Positions 9,309 to 29,456 of a stretch of DNA of 57,301 nucleotides are shown in pieces (within the stretch, counting starts at the first letter, position 1; every line of letters starts with the position of its first letter). The notes under the pieces are model-generated. The model was not told the origin of the DNA, searched no databases, and saw nothing but the letters and a program-made list of their open reading frames with translations. The DNA comes from Thermoplasmata archaeon (lineage in GTDB: Archaea; Thermoplasmatota; Thermoplasmata; Lutacidiplasmatales; UBA184): NCBI GenBank assembly GCA_022750455.1, contig JAKIVR010000007.1, positions 1 through 57,301 on the forward strand. Reading direction: 5' to 3'. A program made the position numbers and the translations under genes.

Positions 9309-9716
9309 ATGGCGAAAGCAAGCCCCGGAGTTCGAAATCTCAAGCAGACCGCGACGTTCCGTGCCTCCCCCCACGACGTCTACCAGGCGCTGGTGGACCC
9401 GCAGGAGCACGCCAAGTTCACCGGCGAGCCCGCGACGATGGTCGCCCACCCCGGCGGCCCGTTCACGGCGTACGACAGCGGTCTCGAAGGATATGTCCTC
9501 CAGCTCGTCCCCGACAAGCGGATCGTCCTCGCCTGGCGGGCGACGGGCTGGCCGAAGGGCCACTGGTCGATCGCCCAGTTCGTCCTCACGAGGTCCGGGA
9601 AGACGACGAAGCTCGAGTTCTCCCAGTTCGGCGTGCCCCTCTCCGACTGGAAGGGGATCGTCGACGGCTGGAAGCAGTTCTACTGGGCGCCGTTGAAGGC
9701 GTACCTGGAAGCCTAG
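9309..9716 (+). CDS. SRPBCC/AHSA1-family protein
   Basis: The product of about 135 residues has the AHSA1-like START fold pattern: TATFRASPHDVYQALVDPQE at the N-terminus, then KRIVLAWRATGWPKGHWS, and a closing GWKQFYWAPLKAYL helix. These small lipid- or ligand-binding-like domains have no single function. ATG 9309 is preferred over ATG 9273, which would add an unlikely proline-rich segment. Its last 131 bases overlap the end of the convergent DNA methyltransferase ORF. It is separate from the AHSA1 cluster at 52-53.6 kb. Confidence 0.8.
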   Translation: MAKASPGVRNLKQTATFRASPHDVYQALVDPQEHAKFTGEPATMVAHPGGPFTAYDSGLEGYVLQLVPDKRIVLAWRATGWPKGHWSIAQFVLTRSGKTTKLEFSQFGVPLSDWKGIVDGWKQFYWAPLKAYLEA

Positions 9717-10602
9717 GCGTCCCGAGCTGCTCGTCGAGCCGCCGCGCGGCGACCGCGAGGTACGCGGCATCGATATCGAAGCCGACGAACGGCAGCCCCA
9801 GCTGGGCCGCCGCGGTGGCGGAGGAGCCGATCCCGACGAACGGATCGGCCGAGAGGGCGATCCGGGCGAGCCCGTGCAGCCGGAAGCAGCGCTCGGCGAG
9901 CGCGGGCGGGAACGACGCCGGGTGGGGCCGGTCCGACGACCGGCGCTGGATCGTGGCGTACGGGAGGAACCACGTGTTCCCCCGGCACCGTCGGCCGCCT
10001 CGGGCCCCGTTCCAGCGCCCGACGTTCGAGCGATCCTGGTAGGCGACGCCGATCGCGAGACGGTCGATCCGCACGTCGCCGCGGTGGCTGAAGTGGAAGA
10101 CGTACTCGTGCGCCCCGTGGACGAACCGGTCCGAGTGGAGCGGTTTGTAATGCCCGACGGCGAGGTCCCGATCGAGGCCGGCCGCGCGGCCGACGTGGGC
10201 CCTCTCGATGACGATCGACTTCACCCAGTGGAGCACGTTCTGCAGGCGGAGGTGCTCGCCAACCTCCCGGGCGACGTCCCACGGTAGCCACGGGTCGGAG
10301 GGAGGCCCCGCGACGTTCAGGAAGAAGGAGCCGTCGTCTGCCAGCGCGCGATCCACCGCCTGGGCGACGGTGCCGATCCAGGCGAGGTACTCCTCCCGGG
10401 GGCGCCGGTCGTGGTACATGGAGTACCGGACGCCGAGATTGTACGGTGGCGAGGTGACGATCGCATCGACCCCGTGGGCCGGGACCTTCTCCCGCAACCC
10501 CCGGACGGCATCGAGGCGCCAGAGGGCGATGGTGCCGGGCTTCTTCGGAAGGGGCCACGACCCGAACGGAGCCGGGGCTCGGACGTCCGTCGGGCCCCTC
10601 AC
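9586..10602 (-). CDS. orphan beta-type DNA methyltransferase (TSPPY motif)
   Basis: The frame shows catalytic motif IV TSPPYNLG near residue 48 and, much later, SAM-binding motif I DPFVGIGSSATAAAQLG near residue 252, followed by VGFDID. Motif IV before motif I is the permuted beta arrangement, and an SPPY-type motif suggests N4-cytosine methylation, although N6-adenine is possible. The GTG start overlaps the TGA of the pilus ATPase gene (GTGA), so translation is probably coupled. No restriction endonuclease is nearby. The last 44 or so codons are Ser/Arg-rich and lie antisense to the AHSA1 gene; they look like a shadow frame, so the natural C-terminus may be disturbed. Confidence 0.85.
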   Translation of the reverse strand: MRGPTDVRAPAPFGSWPLPKKPGTIALWRLDAVRGLREKVPAHGVDAIVTSPPYNLGVRYSMYHDRRPREEYLAWIGTVAQAVDRALADDGSFFLNVAGPPSDPWLPWDVAREVGEHLRLQNVLHWVKSIVIERAHVGRAAGLDRDLAVGHYKPLHSDRFVHGAHEYVFHFSHRGDVRIDRLAIGVAYQDRSNVGRWNGARGGRRCRGNTWFLPYATIQRRSSDRPHPASFPPALAERCFRLHGLARIALSADPFVGIGSSATAAAQLGLPFVGFDIDAAYLAVAARRLDEQLGTPRLPGTPSTAPSRTASSRRRSPSSRRGARRTGRTRASSSSRTS

Positions 10603-12356
10603 GACGCCGCGCGGTCGGCGGCTTTCGCCGTCTCCATCTCTTTGCGGACCTCGGCGAGCGCCTGCTGGGGGGCATTGCCGTACGAGGCCACGAGCCGTCC
10701 GACGTCGCGGTGGGTGAACGGCTTGGCGCGCGTCGCCCGGGAGTCGCGCCACAGCATGTACTGCAGCATCTCGACCCGGTTGCGGACCTCGCGCTCGATG
10801 TCCTTCATCGTCCAGTTCTTCATCACGGCGACGCGCTCGTAGATGTACGAGTGGCCGCTGAACAGGAACGTGTCGTCGGCCGGGTTCCACGAGTAGACGG
10901 AGTTCGTGATCAGTTCGTTCGTCTCGGGATCGAGACCGACGATCTCCACGAGCCCTTGGACGCGGCGCGTCATCTTCGTGCCGACCTTCACCTGCCGCTG
11001 GAGCAGCACCAAGTTGAGCGCGCTCACGAGCGACCGGGGGAGGGTGATGGGGGGGTTCTCCATCCGGTGGACCATCGCCGAGACGGACTCGGCGTGGAAC
11101 GTCGTGTAGCAGGTCTTGCCGGTCGCCATCGCCTGGAAGACGATGAACGCCTCGGCGCCCCGCACCTCTCCGACCATCAGGTACTGGGGACGCTGGCGGA
11201 GGGCGGCCGCGAGCAGGTCGAACATGTCGATCTCGCCCGGCGCCTTCCCGGTGATGATGTTCTTGGCACCGAAGCCGCTCCGGGTCAGGGACGGGACCCA
11301 GTTCTCGTGGGGAAGGTTGAGCTCCCGGGTGTCCTCGATGGAGACGATCTTCATCTGGGGGGGGATGAACAACAGCGTCGCGTTGAGGGTGGTGGTCTTG
11401 CCGCTCGCCGTGCCGCCACAGACCATCATCGACTGGCCGCTCTCGATGGCGATCCAGAGGTATGCCATCATCTCCTGGCTCATCGTCTTGAACTTGAGCA
11501 GGTCGACGGGCGTGAACGGATTGTCCCGGAACCGCCGGATCGTGAACGACGACCCGCGCTTGGTGACGTGCATGCCGAGCGTCGCCTGCAGACGCGACCC
11601 GTCCGGGATGGTGGCGTCGAGCAGCGGGCTCGCGACGGAGATGTGCTTCCCCGAGCGCTGGGCGAGCCAGACGACGTACTTGTCGAGCTCCTCGCTGTTG
11701 GTGAACTTCAGGTTCGAGCGGATCGACCCGTGCTTGCGGTGGTAGATGTACAGCGGGATGCCGACCCCGTCGCAGGAGATGTCCTCTACCTCGACGTCGG
11801 ACATCGGCCCGTCGACGACCCCGTAGCCGATGAAGTCCCTCTCGAGGTAGTACAGCACGCGGCCCTTGGTGGTCGCGCTCGGCGCGAGCCCCCACTCCAC
11901 GAGTAGCTCGTCGACCATCCGGCGCAGCTCGATCTTCTTGGTGGCAACGTCGAACTCGGGGAGCGGCTTGAACCGGTCGATGAGAGCGACGCGGGCCTTC
12001 TCGAAGATCTGGCGCTCCAGGGAACCCATCGGCGGCTCGATGACCTCGTACAGGAACTCATTGCGGACGTTCTGGTAGGAGATCCGGATGAACGAGAACG
12101 GGTCCTTGATCGGGTCGAGGCTGTTGACCGTCACGTCCGGGTCGCGGATCGGGGGGATCGGCGTGATCGGGCCGGAGGTCCCCGCCCCCGAGACCCCGAG
12201 CTTGGCGAGCCGGACCGCGCGGTGGCTGTTGCCCTTGCCGAACTTGGCGGCGAGGCGCAGCCACGCGGGGAAGTACGCGTCGTGTCGCTCCTCGATCGTC
12301 GGGACAGCTTCCTCCTCGGGCGCCTCCATCGTCGGCGCTTGCGCTTCTCCTGCCAT
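10599..12356 (-). CDS. type II/IV secretion (TadA/FlaI-like) ATPase, second copy
   Basis: This 585-residue VirB11/FlaI/TadA-family motor ATPase carries the archaeal N-terminal domain (LYEVIEPPM, then EDISCDGVGIPLYIYHR). Walker A is GGTASGKTTT near residue 313, the Asp box is SIEDTRELNLPHENW, Walker B LMVGEVRGAEA, and the His box TTFHAESV. Such ATPases power assembly of type IV pili or archaella from the cytoplasmic face. It follows two TadC-like platform genes with a 10-base gap and is the second ATPase of the cluster. Its TGA overlaps the GTG of the DNA methyltransferase gene. Confidence 0.93.
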   Translation of the reverse strand: MAGEAQAPTMEAPEEEAVPTIEERHDAYFPAWLRLAAKFGKGNSHRAVRLAKLGVSGAGTSGPITPIPPIRDPDVTVNSLDPIKDPFSFIRISYQNVRNEFLYEVIEPPMGSLERQIFEKARVALIDRFKPLPEFDVATKKIELRRMVDELLVEWGLAPSATTKGRVLYYLERDFIGYGVVDGPMSDVEVEDISCDGVGIPLYIYHRKHGSIRSNLKFTNSEELDKYVVWLAQRSGKHISVASPLLDATIPDGSRLQATLGMHVTKRGSSFTIRRFRDNPFTPVDLLKFKTMSQEMMAYLWIAIESGQSMMVCGGTASGKTTTLNATLLFIPPQMKIVSIEDTRELNLPHENWVPSLTRSGFGAKNIITGKAPGEIDMFDLLAAALRQRPQYLMVGEVRGAEAFIVFQAMATGKTCYTTFHAESVSAMVHRMENPPITLPRSLVSALNLVLLQRQVKVGTKMTRRVQGLVEIVGLDPETNELITNSVYSWNPADDTFLFSGHSYIYERVAVMKNWTMKDIEREVRNRVEMLQYMLWRDSRATRAKPFTHRDVGRLVASYGNAPQQALAEVRKEMETAKAADRAAS

Positions 12357-12366
12357 TCTTCGACTC

Positions 12367-13395
12367 CTACGGGGTTGGGGGGATCACCACCGGGGGCAAG
12401 ACGAACCGCATGAGGATCCAGCCGACGAGGAGCAGGATCGAGGCGTGGCGGAAGCCGTTGGAGATCCGTCCGTTGTGGAGCACGCCCGCCATGATGCCAT
12501 CCCCGGCGGCGTGCGCGATGACGGCGACCAAGAACGCGAGATAGAGCTCGGGCACGAGGGCGAACTGCAACGGGACGGCACTCGCCCCCCCGGCCAGCGA
12601 GCTCGAGGTGGCGACGCTCTGTCCCGCCGAGATCATCGCGGGGAGGAAGTCGCCCGCGAGGATCAGGATCGTGAACAGGAACACGCCGAACGAGATGTAG
12701 ATGACGATGAGGTAGGTGATCAGCGTCTGCTGCCGGGAGATGATCGAGAGCTGCTCCTCCCGGGCGTTCTTGGCGACCATCGTCAGGACGTCGGCGACGT
12801 TCCCCCCGGCCTCGTTGGCGCGGATGACGATCGACACCATCCGCTGCACGAGCGGGGTCGGGACGCGCTCCTCGAACAGCAAGAGCGCCTGGGCGACGGG
12901 CACGCCCCACTCCAGCTGGCTCGCCATGCGCCGGATCTCCTCGGTGAGGATCCCGTAGTGGCCCGTGCTCGCCGAGATGATGGCGTCCGGGAGGGTCATG
13001 CCGAACCGGCCGGCTTCGGAGACGTCCCGCAGGAAGTCCGGTAGGCGCGCCTCGATGGCGTCGACCCGGGCGTCCTCCCTGGACTTCAGGAAGCCGTAGG
13101 GGGCGAAGAAGGCGACGAGCCCGAGGACCATGAAGTCGAGGAAGACGTTGAGGCCGGTCGGCTCCCCGTTCACGAACGTCCAGTTGAGGATCCCGACCCA
13201 GTTCAGCGCCCCGAGCAGGAACAGCACGATGGAGAGCGGGGCCCCGAGGATCAGGCCCCAGGTGGAGAGCGGGAGGACCTTCTTCTGCTGGGCATCGGAG
13301 ACGAGCTTCATCGTCGCCGTCTGGCTGGCGGCCGAGGAGGCGCCCCCGCCGCCGCGGCTCGCGAGAGGATGGGCCGGTGCGTTCGCCGTCGCCAT
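12367..13395 (-). CDS. type IV pilus platform protein (TadC/FlaJ-like), second copy
   Basis: The 342-residue multi-pass membrane protein has the T2SF/TadC layout: early hydrophobic pairs, a cytoplasmic loop with EARLPDFLRDVSEAGRFGM and an EWGVPVAQALLLFEERVPTP segment, then a hydrophobic C-terminal half. This family forms the inner-membrane platform on which the pilus ATPase acts. It is separated by three bases from the other TadC-like gene upstream and by 10 bases from the ATPase gene downstream. The tail VVIPPTP is short. Confidence 0.9.
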   Translation of the reverse strand: MATANAPAHPLASRGGGGASSAASQTATMKLVSDAQQKKVLPLSTWGLILGAPLSIVLFLLGALNWVGILNWTFVNGEPTGLNVFLDFMVLGLVAFFAPYGFLKSREDARVDAIEARLPDFLRDVSEAGRFGMTLPDAIISASTGHYGILTEEIRRMASQLEWGVPVAQALLLFEERVPTPLVQRMVSIVIRANEAGGNVADVLTMVAKNAREEQLSIISRQQTLITYLIVIYISFGVFLFTILILAGDFLPAMISAGQSVATSSSLAGGASAVPLQFALVPELYLAFLVAVIAHAAGDGIMAGVLHNGRISNGFRHASILLLVGWILMRFVLPPVVIPPTP

Positions 13396-13398
13396 GAT

Positions 13399-14397
13399 CT
13401 AGCCCCCCGCCGCGATGACTTTCATGACGAAGATGAAGAGCCCTTCGATGCACGGGATGACGAGGGCGACGATCACCCAGATGAACGTCAGGACGACCTG
13501 GCCGCTCCCGATGATCGCGAAGATGGCGAGGATGATCATCAGGAACAGTGGGAACGCGAAGACGGTGATCACGAACACTTCGGCCATCAGGCCCATCGTC
13601 TCCGTCTGCTGCTGCAGGTCGAGCTTCGCCTCGCGCTCGTACTGCTCGGCCTTGATCAGGAAGTACGGCTTCAACTGCCCCCCCGATGTGGCGGTGGTCA
13701 CGACGCCCTGCAGGAAGTCCTGGAACCGCTTGGAGGGCGTGCGCGCGGCCGCCTCCCGGATCGCCGTCAGGATGTCGACGCCGAGGATCTCGGTGTCGCG
13801 GGTGATCCACGCCGCCTCTTCGGCGACGGCGCCGTAGATCCGGGTCTGCCGGGCGAGCTCCCGGAAGATCTGGTCGATGTTGACGTCCGCGCTCGCCATG
13901 GCGCTCATGAAGTTCATCGCCGACGGGACCTTCTTGTCGATCGCGTGCCCCCGCGACTTCGCCGTGCGGCCGGGGGAGCCCATCACCATCAGGAAGATCA
14001 CCGGGGTCAGGAGCACCGGGAGCAGCACGGCGAGGACGAGGCCGAGCACCAACGAGCCGAGGGCGAGGTCCATGAACAGGAACAGCGCGACGCCCGCCGC
14101 GACGAGGGCGATCGCGGCGATCATCGTGTAGGCGTACGCCTGGGCGGTGAACTCGTCGGCCCGGATCCGCATGTGGGCGCGGACGAGGTTCTCCTCCAGC
14201 ACCGGGTTCGATGGGCGCGAGGTCGCCCGGTGCTTGAACGTCTTCCAGGCGAACTGCTGGAACGCGTCGAGCTCGGAGTGGGGCGGTGTCTCTCCCCGGG
14301 CGACGCGGATGATCCGGCCTTCGGGCTCCACCTCGGGGAGCGGATCGGCCGGGGGCGCGGCCGCGAGCTTCGGGATCTTCAGGGTCTTGGTCGCCAA
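13399..14397 (-). CDS. type IV pilus platform protein (TadC/FlaJ-like), first copy
   Basis: The 332-residue protein has a long soluble N-terminus (about 90 residues), two hydrophobic hairpins, and a T2SF-type cytoplasmic loop (KKVPSAMNFMSAMASADVN and SKRFQDFLQGVVTTATSGG), followed by C-terminal membrane helices. It resembles its neighbour in plan but not closely in sequence, so the two probably form a hetero-pair as TadB/TadC do. One base separates it from the upstream ATPase stop. Confidence 0.9.
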   Translation of the reverse strand: MATKTLKIPKLAAAPPADPLPEVEPEGRIIRVARGETPPHSELDAFQQFAWKTFKHRATSRPSNPVLEENLVRAHMRIRADEFTAQAYAYTMIAAIALVAAGVALFLFMDLALGSLVLGLVLAVLLPVLLTPVIFLMVMGSPGRTAKSRGHAIDKKVPSAMNFMSAMASADVNIDQIFRELARQTRIYGAVAEEAAWITRDTEILGVDILTAIREAAARTPSKRFQDFLQGVVTTATSGGQLKPYFLIKAEQYEREAKLDLQQQTETMGLMAEVFVITVFAFPLFLMIILAIFAIIGSGQVVLTFIWVIVALVIPCIEGLFIFVMKVIAAGG

Positions 14398-14398
14398 C

Positions 14399-16027
14399 TT
14401 ACCGGACCCCCCCGGAGGTGATCATGTCGGCGACGGCCTTCGGGTCCTTGTAGTACCCCGCCACCAGCCGCCAGAGCTGGCGGTAGTCGGTGATCTTCTT
14501 CTCGGCGAGGTAGTGGATGACGGCGACCCGGCGCTGGAACTCGGCGTCCATGTCCTCGTGGGTGTAGTTGCGGACCTCGATGATCTTGTCGAAGAGGAAC
14601 GAGTGTCCCTTGAACAGGAACGTGTCGTTGGACGCGTCCCACTCGTAGACGGTGTTGGTGATCAGTTCGTTCGTCTCGGGCTCGAACCCGACGATCTCCA
14701 GCACCTGCTTGATCCGGCGCACGACCCCGTGCTCGGTCCGGGTCTGGACCTGGATGATGACGTTGTTGAGCGCGGAGAGGAGGATCCGGGGGGTGTTGAT
14801 CGGCGGGTTCTCGAGGCGGTTCACCATCGACTTCACGCTGTCGGCGTGCATCGTCGAGTAGGTGGTGTGCCCGGTCGCCATCGCCTGGAACATGGTGTAC
14901 GTCTCCTTGCCCCGGACCTCGCCGACGATGATGTAGTTCGGCCGTTGCCGCAGCGCGGCGCGGACCAGGTCGAACATGTCGACCTCCCCGGCGGACTTGC
15001 CGTCGGGGCCCCGGTCGCCGGCGCCGCTGCGCGTGGCGCCCGGGATCCAGTTCTCGTGGGGGAGGTTCACCTCGCGGGTGTCCTCGATGGAGACGATCTT
15101 CGCCGTCGGGGGGATGAACAGCGAGATGGCGTTGAGGGTGCACGTCTTGCCCGAGGCGGGTCCGCCGCAGATGATCAGCGACTCGCCGACCTCGGCCGCG
15201 AGCCAGAAGTAGGCGATCATCTCCTCGCTCGCCGTGTGGTTCAGGACGAGGTCGACCGGGGTGAACGGCTTCTCCTTGTACCGCCGCAGGGTGAAGCTGC
15301 CGCCGCGGGTCGTCACCTCGCGCCCGTACGTCGCCTGGACTCGGTGGCCTTCGGGGGTGGTGCCATCGAGGATCGGGGCCGACACCGAGACGGCCTTCCC
15401 GCAGCGCTGGCCGAGCAGGATGATGAACGAGTCGAGCTCCTCCTCGTGGGCGAAGGCAAGGTTCGTGCGGACCGACTCGTACTTGCCGTGGAAGATGAAC
15501 AACGGCACGTTGACGCCGTCGCACGAAAGGTCCTCCACCTGGGGGTCGCCGATCAACGCGTCGACGGCGCCGAACCCGACGAAGTCGCGCTGGATGTAGT
15601 AGATGATCCGCTCGGCCGAGAGCGGACTGAGGGAGACGCCCCGGGAGCGCAAGTACGACTCGACCTCGCCCCGGAGGAACGACCGCTTCTGCCCGCCGGT
15701 GAGGGACGCCACTTCCGGGCCGATGATCCGGGTGAGGGTCTCCTTGAGGTGCTCGAGCACCTCTTGCTCGTGGCGGGAGAGTTGGGGCTCAATGACCTCG
15801 TACAGGTACTCCTTGGTCCGATCGTTGTACGAGACCCGCGCGTAGGAGTACGGGGCGTTGATCGCGCTGACCTGGAGCTCGCGCATATCCGGGTCGGTGA
15901 GCGGCGGCATCGCCGTGATGAACGTCCCCGGGAGGTCCGTGGTCGAGCCCTCGAGGTTCTTGTCCCCGGCGGCGCGTCCGTCCGTCCGGGCGGTCCGGGG
16001 GATCCGGATCCGCATCGTCGCGCTCAT
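14399..16027 (-). CDS. type II/IV secretion (TadA/FlaI-like) ATPase, first copy
   Basis: The 542-residue ATPase is of the same family as the second copy in this cluster. LYEVIEPQL and EDLSCDGVNVPLFIFHGKYE mark the N-terminal domain. Walker A is GGPASGKTCT near residue 286, with the Asp box SIEDTREVNLPHENW, Walker B YIIVGEVRGKET and the His box STMHADSV. All catalytic elements look intact, so neither copy is an obvious dead paralogue. It begins 10 bases after the pilin-like gene and is followed one base later by a TadC-like gene, indicating one operon. Confidence 0.93.
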   Translation of the reverse strand: MSATMRIRIPRTARTDGRAAGDKNLEGSTTDLPGTFITAMPPLTDPDMRELQVSAINAPYSYARVSYNDRTKEYLYEVIEPQLSRHEQEVLEHLKETLTRIIGPEVASLTGGQKRSFLRGEVESYLRSRGVSLSPLSAERIIYYIQRDFVGFGAVDALIGDPQVEDLSCDGVNVPLFIFHGKYESVRTNLAFAHEEELDSFIILLGQRCGKAVSVSAPILDGTTPEGHRVQATYGREVTTRGGSFTLRRYKEKPFTPVDLVLNHTASEEMIAYFWLAAEVGESLIICGGPASGKTCTLNAISLFIPPTAKIVSIEDTREVNLPHENWIPGATRSGAGDRGPDGKSAGEVDMFDLVRAALRQRPNYIIVGEVRGKETYTMFQAMATGHTTYSTMHADSVKSMVNRLENPPINTPRILLSALNNVIIQVQTRTEHGVVRRIKQVLEIVGFEPETNELITNTVYEWDASNDTFLFKGHSFLFDKIIEVRNYTHEDMDAEFQRRVAVIHYLAEKKITDYRQLWRLVAGYYKDPKAVADMITSGGVR

Positions 16028-16037
16028 GCGGACTCCA

Positions 16038-17000
16038 TCACCCTTGTCCCACTCCTGTGAAGATCGTCGCCGTATTGACGATCAAATTGTACTTCGATAG
16101 CTGGCGCAACGTCAGCTCGACCATGGTCGATCCGCCCGAATTGTAGGCGACCCCCGAGCAGGTCGAGGGGCTCAGGGTCCAGAACGACTTTGGGAGGTTC
16201 GACGCGTTGAGGGTGGTCTGGAGGTAGTTCACCCACGCGCATCCGTAGGAGGTGCCGAGCTTGACCGTGACGTTGAATGGGGTCCCGGGCGCGCTCGTGC
16301 TCCCGTTGGTGGGGAAGATCTGCTGGGTCCCGTACCGGCTGAACACTTCGATGGTGCCGGACGAGACGACCTGGGTGGCGTTCCCGTAGAGCTGGAGGAT
16401 GCCCATCGTCACCTGGCGGTACGTCCCCGAGGTGTTGATCGTGAAGATCGGCGGGTACAGGAGCGCCTGCTGGCTCTGCTGGGAGCTCCCCTGGCTTTGG
16501 ATGACCGCGTCGTCCTCGAACTCGAAGACCTGAGGCGGGTAGTAGCGGTTTGGGATGGTGAGACGGACGGTCCCGAGCGTCTGGTTGTAGACGAAGTTCG
16601 GCTTGCCGCCCGGGCCGTACTGCATGGTGATGTTGGCGTAGACGCCGTAGGTGTGGGGGATGTAGTTCAGGACCGCCGTCGTCGGCTGGGCGAAGAGCGG
16701 GATACCGTCGGAGGAGAGCGGGAGCGGCGCGGCGAGGATCGGGGGACCGGCGAGCTCCGACTGGAGGTCGATGTTCGCCTTCAGCTCCGCGAACGCGCGC
16801 TGGGCGTCGTCGCTGAACGCCTGCTCGTTCTCGTCCATCCAGACCGGGACGTACTGCGTGACGAAGATGCCGAACAGGGCGAAGAAGACGAGGAGCGAGA
16901 GCAGCGTCCCCACCACCGAGACGACGGCGTGGGATCGTCGCCAGCGGATCCGCCGGGACGGGCGCCGACGGGGCTGAAGGGCGGGGGATGGTCTGTGCAT
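16038..17000 (-). CDS. pilin-like secreted protein with type IV pilin-type N-terminus
   Basis: The 320-residue protein starts with a very basic stretch (RRRPSRRIRWRRSHA) followed by one long hydrophobic helix (VVSVVGTLLSLLVFFALFGI). This resembles archaeal pilin or archaellin precursors with a class III signal peptide. The rest is an extracytoplasmic, Thr/Ser/Asn-rich beta-type domain with several NxT/S sequons. It heads the pilus operon, so it is the best candidate for a pilin or minor pilin. At 320 residues it is long for a major pilin. The exact processing site is not clear. Confidence 0.75.
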   Translation of the reverse strand: MHRPSPALQPRRRPSRRIRWRRSHAVVSVVGTLLSLLVFFALFGIFVTQYVPVWMDENEQAFSDDAQRAFAELKANIDLQSELAGPPILAAPLPLSSDGIPLFAQPTTAVLNYIPHTYGVYANITMQYGPGGKPNFVYNQTLGTVRLTIPNRYYPPQVFEFEDDAVIQSQGSSQQSQQALLYPPIFTINTSGTYRQVTMGILQLYGNATQVVSSGTIEVFSRYGTQQIFPTNGSTSAPGTPFNVTVKLGTSYGCAWVNYLQTTLNASNLPKSFWTLSPSTCSGVAYNSGGSTMVELTLRQLSKYNLIVNTATIFTGVGQG

Positions 17001-17035: not shown

Positions 17036-17064
17036 ATTTTAGAGCCGAGTTCCCGTATAAATAG
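17036..17064. promoter_or_regulatory. promoter region between the pilus operon and ACT gene
   Basis: Two A/T islands lie in this divergent spacer: ATTTTAGA at 17036-17043, about 40 bases before the pilin-like ATG on the minus strand, and TATAAATA at 17056-17063. The second is the closest match to a consensus TATA box that I noticed and could serve either strand. The ACT gene also has a weaker TTTAG about 37 bases before its ATG. Confidence 0.5.
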
Positions 17065-21344: not shown

Positions 21345-21448
21345 TCCCGGCTGCCTGACTCGAACAGGCGACCTGAGGATATCTGCGGGGACCCGCCCGA
21401 AGGCGGTCGCAACTACAGTCCCCCGCTCTACCACTGAGCTAAGCCGGG
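21345..21448 (-). tRNA. tRNA-Tyr (GTA) with intron
   Basis: Acceptor CCCGGCT pairs with AGCCGGG, with C1:G72 as in archaeal tRNA-Tyr. The D stem is GCTC/GAGC, the anticodon stem GGGGA/TCCTC with loop CTGTAG-A, and the T arm GCCTG-TTCGAGT-CAGGC. A 32-base intron (plus-strand 21381-21412) lies at position 37/38. The discriminator is A and CCA is not encoded. Confidence 0.93.
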
Positions 21449-29333: not shown

Positions 29334-29456
29334 GGCTGACGGTCATAGCGGCGGGGTCACACCCGGTCTCATTCCGAACCCGGCAGTTAAGCCCGCTGGC
29401 GTTCCGCGTGGTACTGAAGTACGCGAGTCTACGGGAAGCGCGGAGAGCTGTCAGCC
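29334..29456 (+). rRNA. rrf: 5S ribosomal RNA
   Basis: The terminal helix I is formed by GGCTGAC and GTCAGCC. Inside are the universal 5S segments GGGTCACACCCGGTCTCATT, CCGAACCCGG and AGTTAAGCCC, and the helix IV/V region GGTACTGAAGTACGCGAG. The length of about 123 bases is normal. No 16S, 23S or tRNA gene is next to it, and it has its own TATA box. Confidence 0.96.

Follow-up and report, generated by a model that had tools for sequence, protein, structure and literature searches.

Type IV pilus machines with two ATPases and a divided platform have been reported in Cuniculiplasma. In C. divulgatum S5 the ATPases CSP5_0712 and CSP5_0715 flank the TadC-like proteins CSP5_0713-0714, an arrangement that is the same in PM4 and was likened to that of Aciduliprofundum (PMC5155288, 2016). 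The names CdiPE1/E2 and CdiPFa/Fb followed in 2025, with Fa and Fb matching the N- and C-terminal halves of AapF; that paper regarded the possession of two ATPases as unique among archaeal operons and described the second as enigmatic (PMC12448462). Two tadC-like genes are also present in some other archaeal pilus loci (PMC4858521, Makarova 2016). Bacterial pili, with PilB, PilT and PilU, likewise employ more than one ATPase per machine.

Here we analysed a 57,301-nucleotide stretch of the genome of a Thermoplasmata archaeon (the window), which carries five open reading frames on the minus strand between positions 17000 and 10599, separated by 10, 1, 3 and 10 nt and probably forming one operon. 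A sequence-only reading had described the order as pilin-like gene, ATPase, TadC-like, TadC-like, ATPase with almost no spacers, and the reading frames and Pfam matches bear this out. That reading placed the start of the cluster at 9586, which wrongly takes in a neighbouring methylase gene, and it presented the arrangement as not yet described, whereas the layout had been reported in Cuniculiplasma (PMC5155288, 2016; PMC12448462, 2025). The features of the locus are as follows, with gene starts being approximate:

17056..17063, minus strand: possible archaeal TATA box, TATTTATA, 56 nt upstream of the first-gene ATG, proposed from reading the sequence
16038..17000, minus strand: pilin-like first gene, 320 aa, with a class III type N-terminus, a single long helix and a beta-rich head
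14399..16027, minus strand: ATPase A, 542 aa, the upstream copy of the FlaI/GspE2-type secretion ATPase (Pfam T2SSE, 4.8e-30)
15344..15346, minus strand: codon for His228 of A, in the EGHR motif and adjoining the conserved Arg229
13399..14397, minus strand: T1, 332 aa, platform protein, N-terminal half of FlaJ/ArlJ (Pfam T2SSF, 6e-17)
12367..13395, minus strand: T2, 342 aa, platform protein, C-terminal half of FlaJ/ArlJ (Pfam T2SSF, 1.6e-19)
10599..12356, minus strand: ATPase B, 585 aa, the downstream copy of the FlaI/GspE2-type secretion ATPase (Pfam T2SSE, 1.2e-33)
11115..11117, minus strand: codon for Lys414 of B, in the TGK motif, replacing the first histidine of the His box
about 9586-10530, minus strand: N6/N4 DNA methylase, adjoining the cluster (Pfam match)

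Besides the window, just five close relatives, all of family f1 (L043-L047), have this methylase next to the cluster. Scans of the cluster for bacterial promoters and terminators were uninformative. Elsewhere in the window Rfam matches tRNAs at 378-479 and 21345-21448, both on the minus strand, long enough to contain introns and missed by ARAGORN, the second of which looks like tRNA-Tyr; a 5S rRNA gene lies at 29335-29456 on the plus strand, with no other rRNA match within the window.

The cluster shares with the CdiP machine its two FlaI-type ATPases placed around a platform made of N- and C-terminal halves, the order ATPase-TadC-TadC-ATPase, and pilins encoded elsewhere. In contrast to CdiP, the operon of the window opens with a conserved pilin-like gene, which was not found upstream in the putative CdiP locus L111 of G093. 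Nearly all homologs of this first gene have a class III (prepilin) type N-terminus, (E)GVASTVGTIMALxVF, following a basic stretch, and in family f44 the gene is placed after B rather than before A. No Pfam or NCBIfam family matched the protein. An AlphaFold model built with 28 homologs (pLDDT 86.7, pTM 0.80) predicts a 63-residue N-terminal helix (residues 21-83) followed by the beta-rich head, for which a fold search of the PDB returned no match at E<=0.001. We infer that the protein is a minor pilin or a machine-associated pilin. The same genome encodes a prepilin peptidase on contig C64 and PilA-type pilins (Pilin_N above the cut-off) on contigs C76 and C3, unlinked to the cluster, and it is these pilins that would serve the two-ATPase machine. 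A second pilus locus in this genome (L083, G000:C13) contains one ATPase, T1, T2 with an N-terminal extension, a Pilin_N pilin and a KaiC-like ATPase.

Against the NCBIfam FlaJ models T1 aligns to positions 9-245 of 555 and T2 to positions 296-543, showing that the two proteins are one FlaJ in two pieces. A duplicated platform was ruled out by this match to complementary halves; the identity between T1 and T2 is 26% over 163 aa. The division of the platform probably predates the doubling of the ATPase, as T1 and T2 are also encoded separately in single-ATPase relatives within the phylum. These single-ATPase split-platform pili (PMC4858521; L122-L130, L083) likewise combine a FlaI/GspE2-type ATPase with two TadC-like genes, but their one ATPase keeps both the first histidine of the His box and a serine before the Arg finger. 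The ATPase and platform are also homologous to ArlI and ArlJ of the archaellum; the platform here, however, is split, and no ArlF, ArlG or ArlH was found beside the cluster.

The two ATPases of the window are 49% identical, and for both the closest solved structure is Archaeoglobus GspE2 (2oap; A E=4e-119, B E=2.5e-119). This protein and Sulfolobus FlaI (4ihq) are the closest solved relatives of A and B, although they are single ATPases. A and B score about 400 bits against the FlaI model, yet stay below its cut-off. Unlike the ATPase of the bacterial Tad pilus, neither belongs to the TadA family by model score (130 and 141 bits; cut-off 373), and by their PilT model scores (46 and 38 bits; cut-off 319) neither is a member of the PilT family, which sets them apart from bacterial PilT and rules out a PilT-type retraction ATPase as the identity of either protein.

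This comparison bears on whether A and B are opposed motors, one hexamer extending and the other retracting the pilus on the same split platform in the manner of PilB and PilT. Bacteria employ such pairs, the idea has been raised for CdiPE1/E2 (PMC12448462), and both ATPases appear active and differently specialised. However, neither is PilT-like, C. divulgatum adhered without twitching (PMC12448462), and Sulfolobus retracts its Aap pili although it has no PilT homolog (PMC11178785). If one of the two were a retraction motor, it would also be expected to be lost alone at times, and we saw no such loss in the class. We regard opposed motors as unlikely, though they are the foremost of the rival explanations.

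How widely the pair is kept was examined by searching a profile of A and B across 120 genomes of the class and typing the loci with family HMMs; most of the genomes compared are metagenome-assembled, and the counts come from samples rather than a census. The search matched 98 of the 120 genomes, 89 of them at least twice, and most visible ATPase pairs lie about 2 kb apart on the same strand. Contiguous A-T1-T2-B was found in 66 distinct genomes, far more often than chance would give; they represent 28 families, of which two fall in a second class of the phylum. A scan of named GTDB genomes gave 79 loci, with the titles Thermoplasmata, DHVE2 group, Methanomassiliicoccales and Aciduliprofundum; 56 have the full cluster in order, and most of the remainder are truncated by contig ends. 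The conserved synteny that the sequence-only reading had suggested looking for therefore exists, and its concern that the order might be unique to this contig does not hold.

Nine of the 98 genomes gave a single match. In five the match lies at a contig end (G218, G240, G253, G256 and G261), and in G205 a run of 100 N bases directly 3' of T2 probably hides the B gene, so these apparent single-ATPase genomes are explained by contig ends or the N run. The remaining three, G054, G096 and G099, belong to family f4, and their single matches have values of about 1e-98. The G096 match proved to be an ATPase of the archaellum type accompanied by a full-length platform gene (L133), and those in G054 and G099 are presumably also archaellum-type. 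Within the class, among the 98 matched genomes, we found no confirmed system with only one of A and B. G090, a 97% complete genome of the window's genus, matches neither ATPase and would represent a recent loss of the whole system, A and B being kept or lost together in the class.

Linkage alone does not account for this co-retention. In four genomes A lies apart from pil-T1-T2-B, on another contig in G279, G280 and G281 and on the opposite strand at a distance of about 8 kb in G278, yet all four retain a single A and a single B. In L216 the order has changed to pil-A-B-T1-T2. Outside the class one ATPase can serve the platform, as two sister-class genomes of the same genus (G035 and G041, 81% and 72% complete) have pil-ATPase-T1-T2 with no second ATPase seen, and this counts against obligate pairing.

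In IQ-TREE analysis the A sequences of the class form one clade and the B sequences another, each with support of 100/100, and the window A and B fall in their respective clades (100/100 each). The ATPase tree that the earlier reading had proposed thus resolves the two copies as old paralogs. The ATPases of the sister-class pairs (G005, G017 and G026) fall into two further clades, ATP1 and ATP2, and a single duplication before the split of the sister class, joining A with sister ATP1 and B with sister ATP2, has a p-AU of 0.71; the tests permit either one old event or separate duplications. The TGH/TGK pattern common to the sister-class pairs and L216 is suggestive of a single old event accompanied by some gene conversion, but in the tree the two L216 copies group together (98/95). 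In both L106 (G014:C11) and L216 (G282:C115) adjacent ATPases accompany T1-T2 and are each other's sisters in the tree, which may reflect separate duplications or gene conversion. The ATPases of family f4, on the Cuniculiplasma side, have long branches and were omitted from the careful IQ-TREE analysis; in a quick tree they fall outside the A and B clades, and as these sequences evolve fast their orthology is assigned by HMM score and position. In L111 of G093, for example, the upstream copy scores 568 against A and 523 against B, the downstream copy 551 against B and 484 against A. Very diverged ATPase-T1-T2-ATPase clusters were also observed in L237 (G278:C66), the second such cluster in that genome, and in L134 (G096).

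Comparison with three relatives gave pN/pS values of 0.36-0.41 (A) and 0.41-0.43 (B), which are low and similar and argue that neither gene is decaying. ATPase pairs recur within the phylum in several forms, as might be expected of tandem duplications left behind neutrally, but such a leftover, or an assembly artefact, is refuted by the order in 66 genomes of 28 families, the old clades, the intact motifs and the low pN/pS, and is hardly credible. The synteny, the trees and the constraint dispose of the related worry, voiced in the earlier reading, that one ATPase and one TadC might be recent non-functional copies.

Motifs were compared across 56 sequences of A and 56 of B from the class, together with divergent copies (n=7) and an outgroup (n=9). 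The Walker A GKT, the Asp-box glutamate, the Walker B GE, the arginine of xxGxR and the second histidine of the His box are present in 56/56 A and 56/56 B sequences. The first histidine of the His box is kept in every A sequence (56/56) and in the outgroup (9/9), whereas in B the position is K in 48, T in 7 and H in 1 of the 56; it is R in the divergent f4 B copies and Q in G154. The residue before the conserved arginine is H (EGHR) in all 56 A sequences and all 7 divergent A copies, but S (DGSR) in 55 of 56 B sequences and in the whole outgroup (9/9), and the full EGHR motif occurs in nearly all A sequences. The sequence-only reading had credited both proteins with all four motifs, which stands for Walker A, the Asp box, Walker B and the His box of A (TGH...TMHA), although the His box of B is incomplete (TGK...TFHA). 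Its suggestion that both ATPases could be active appears probable, given catalytic cores that are intact and conserved across genomes.

Altogether 22 differences between A and B are fixed, 10 derived in A and 8 derived in B. The Arg-finger strand, a region of 34 residues that was picked post hoc, contains six of the 22 (p=0.002 when all columns are considered, 0.036 among the conserved ones). Sister-class pairs and L216 have TGH in ATP1 and TGK in ATP2 without EGHR, so the His-box change seems to have preceded the EGHR change. Loss of the first histidine is not specific to pairs, since some single ArlI proteins (L135, L136 and L143) are also without it.

These differences raise the question of whether one ATPase, B or A, is mainly structural or regulatory, binding ATP but hardly hydrolysing it and tuning its partner. 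B is without the first histidine in 55 of 56 sequences, A has the histidine before the Arg finger in all 56, and PilT-type ATPases are reported to need both His-box histidines for function (PMC6762196). Yet the catalytic glutamate, Walker A, the Arg finger and the second histidine are invariant in A and B, the two proteins are under equal constraint, and single ArlI ATPases without the first histidine exist. We consider a mainly structural or regulatory partner improbable, more so than opposed motors.

Our preferred interpretation, held with modest confidence and drawn from sequence comparison, is that the cluster encodes the assembly machine of a CdiP-kind type IV pilus in which A and B form an obligate, cooperating pair on one platform. 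The all-or-none retention, the equal constraint and the position of the changes at contacts together suggest such a pair. In PilB, the packing unit whose Walker A binds ATP is not the one that supplies the Arg fingers and the threonine flanked by the two His-box histidines; these come from its neighbour and lie where the two units touch, and the His box has been proposed to mediate inter-chain cooperativity (PMC5424180). By alignment with this geometry the A- and B-specific changes would sit at contacts between units. A and B would then together drive one split platform, with T1 as its N-terminal half and T2 as its C-terminal half, A being specialised beside the Arg finger and B in the His box, both where neighbouring subunits are predicted to meet.

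Several arrangements could accommodate a cooperating pair. The one we prefer is a single composite ring of A and B, and a mixed ring would account for the complementarity of the A and B changes. That the two alternate in one ring with two kinds of ATP site is a more tentative proposal, made by analogy with PilB and appreciably less probable than the cooperating pair itself. Our next choice would be a pair of coupled rings in which one depends on the other, by analogy with PilU, which functions only together with PilT (PMC6762196); stacked rings of this kind would also explain the pattern. All-or-none retention would fit two separate motors, each essential, as well. Simple antagonism of the PilB/PilT type is less likely.

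Doubled ATPases were also observed in archaella. Tandem ArlI pairs lie between ArlH and a full-length ArlJ in 15 archaellum loci, L241-L255 (in G236, G220, G022, G014, G108, G100, G335, G305, G077, G091, G187, G094, G069, G152 and G088), and adjacent ArlI pairs occur in about 25 genomes. All known archaella have been stated to encode one ATPase (PMC12448462), and our literature search returned no report of tandem ArlI pairs. In L241 and L242 the first ArlI is without the first histidine of the His box (TGI and IGN) and the second keeps it, resembling the pilus pair, although some single ArlI proteins are also without it.

In contrast to the description of two ATPases as unique (PMC12448462), here they occur class-wide. 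Our literature search, which covered main texts (supplementary figures may show more), returned no report of this class-wide all-or-none conservation or of the residue asymmetry, the layout itself being known. The second ATPase is no single-species oddity: two ancient, differently specialised ATPases are held class-wide, all or none, and the near class-wide joint retention of both motors makes the unexplained second motor testable. Two residues, His228 of A and Lys414 of B, are sites at which one can probe the use of two subunit types by a type IV filament motor. Should the alternating ring be true, A sites would combine the EGHR of A with the TGK of B, and B sites DGSR with TGH, following the PilB geometry, and the result would be a type IV filament motor with built-in asymmetry on a heteromeric platform, fixed across an archaeal class. 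Together with the tandem-ArlI archaella, the pilus pair suggests that doubling of the ATPase is recurrent in the phylum.
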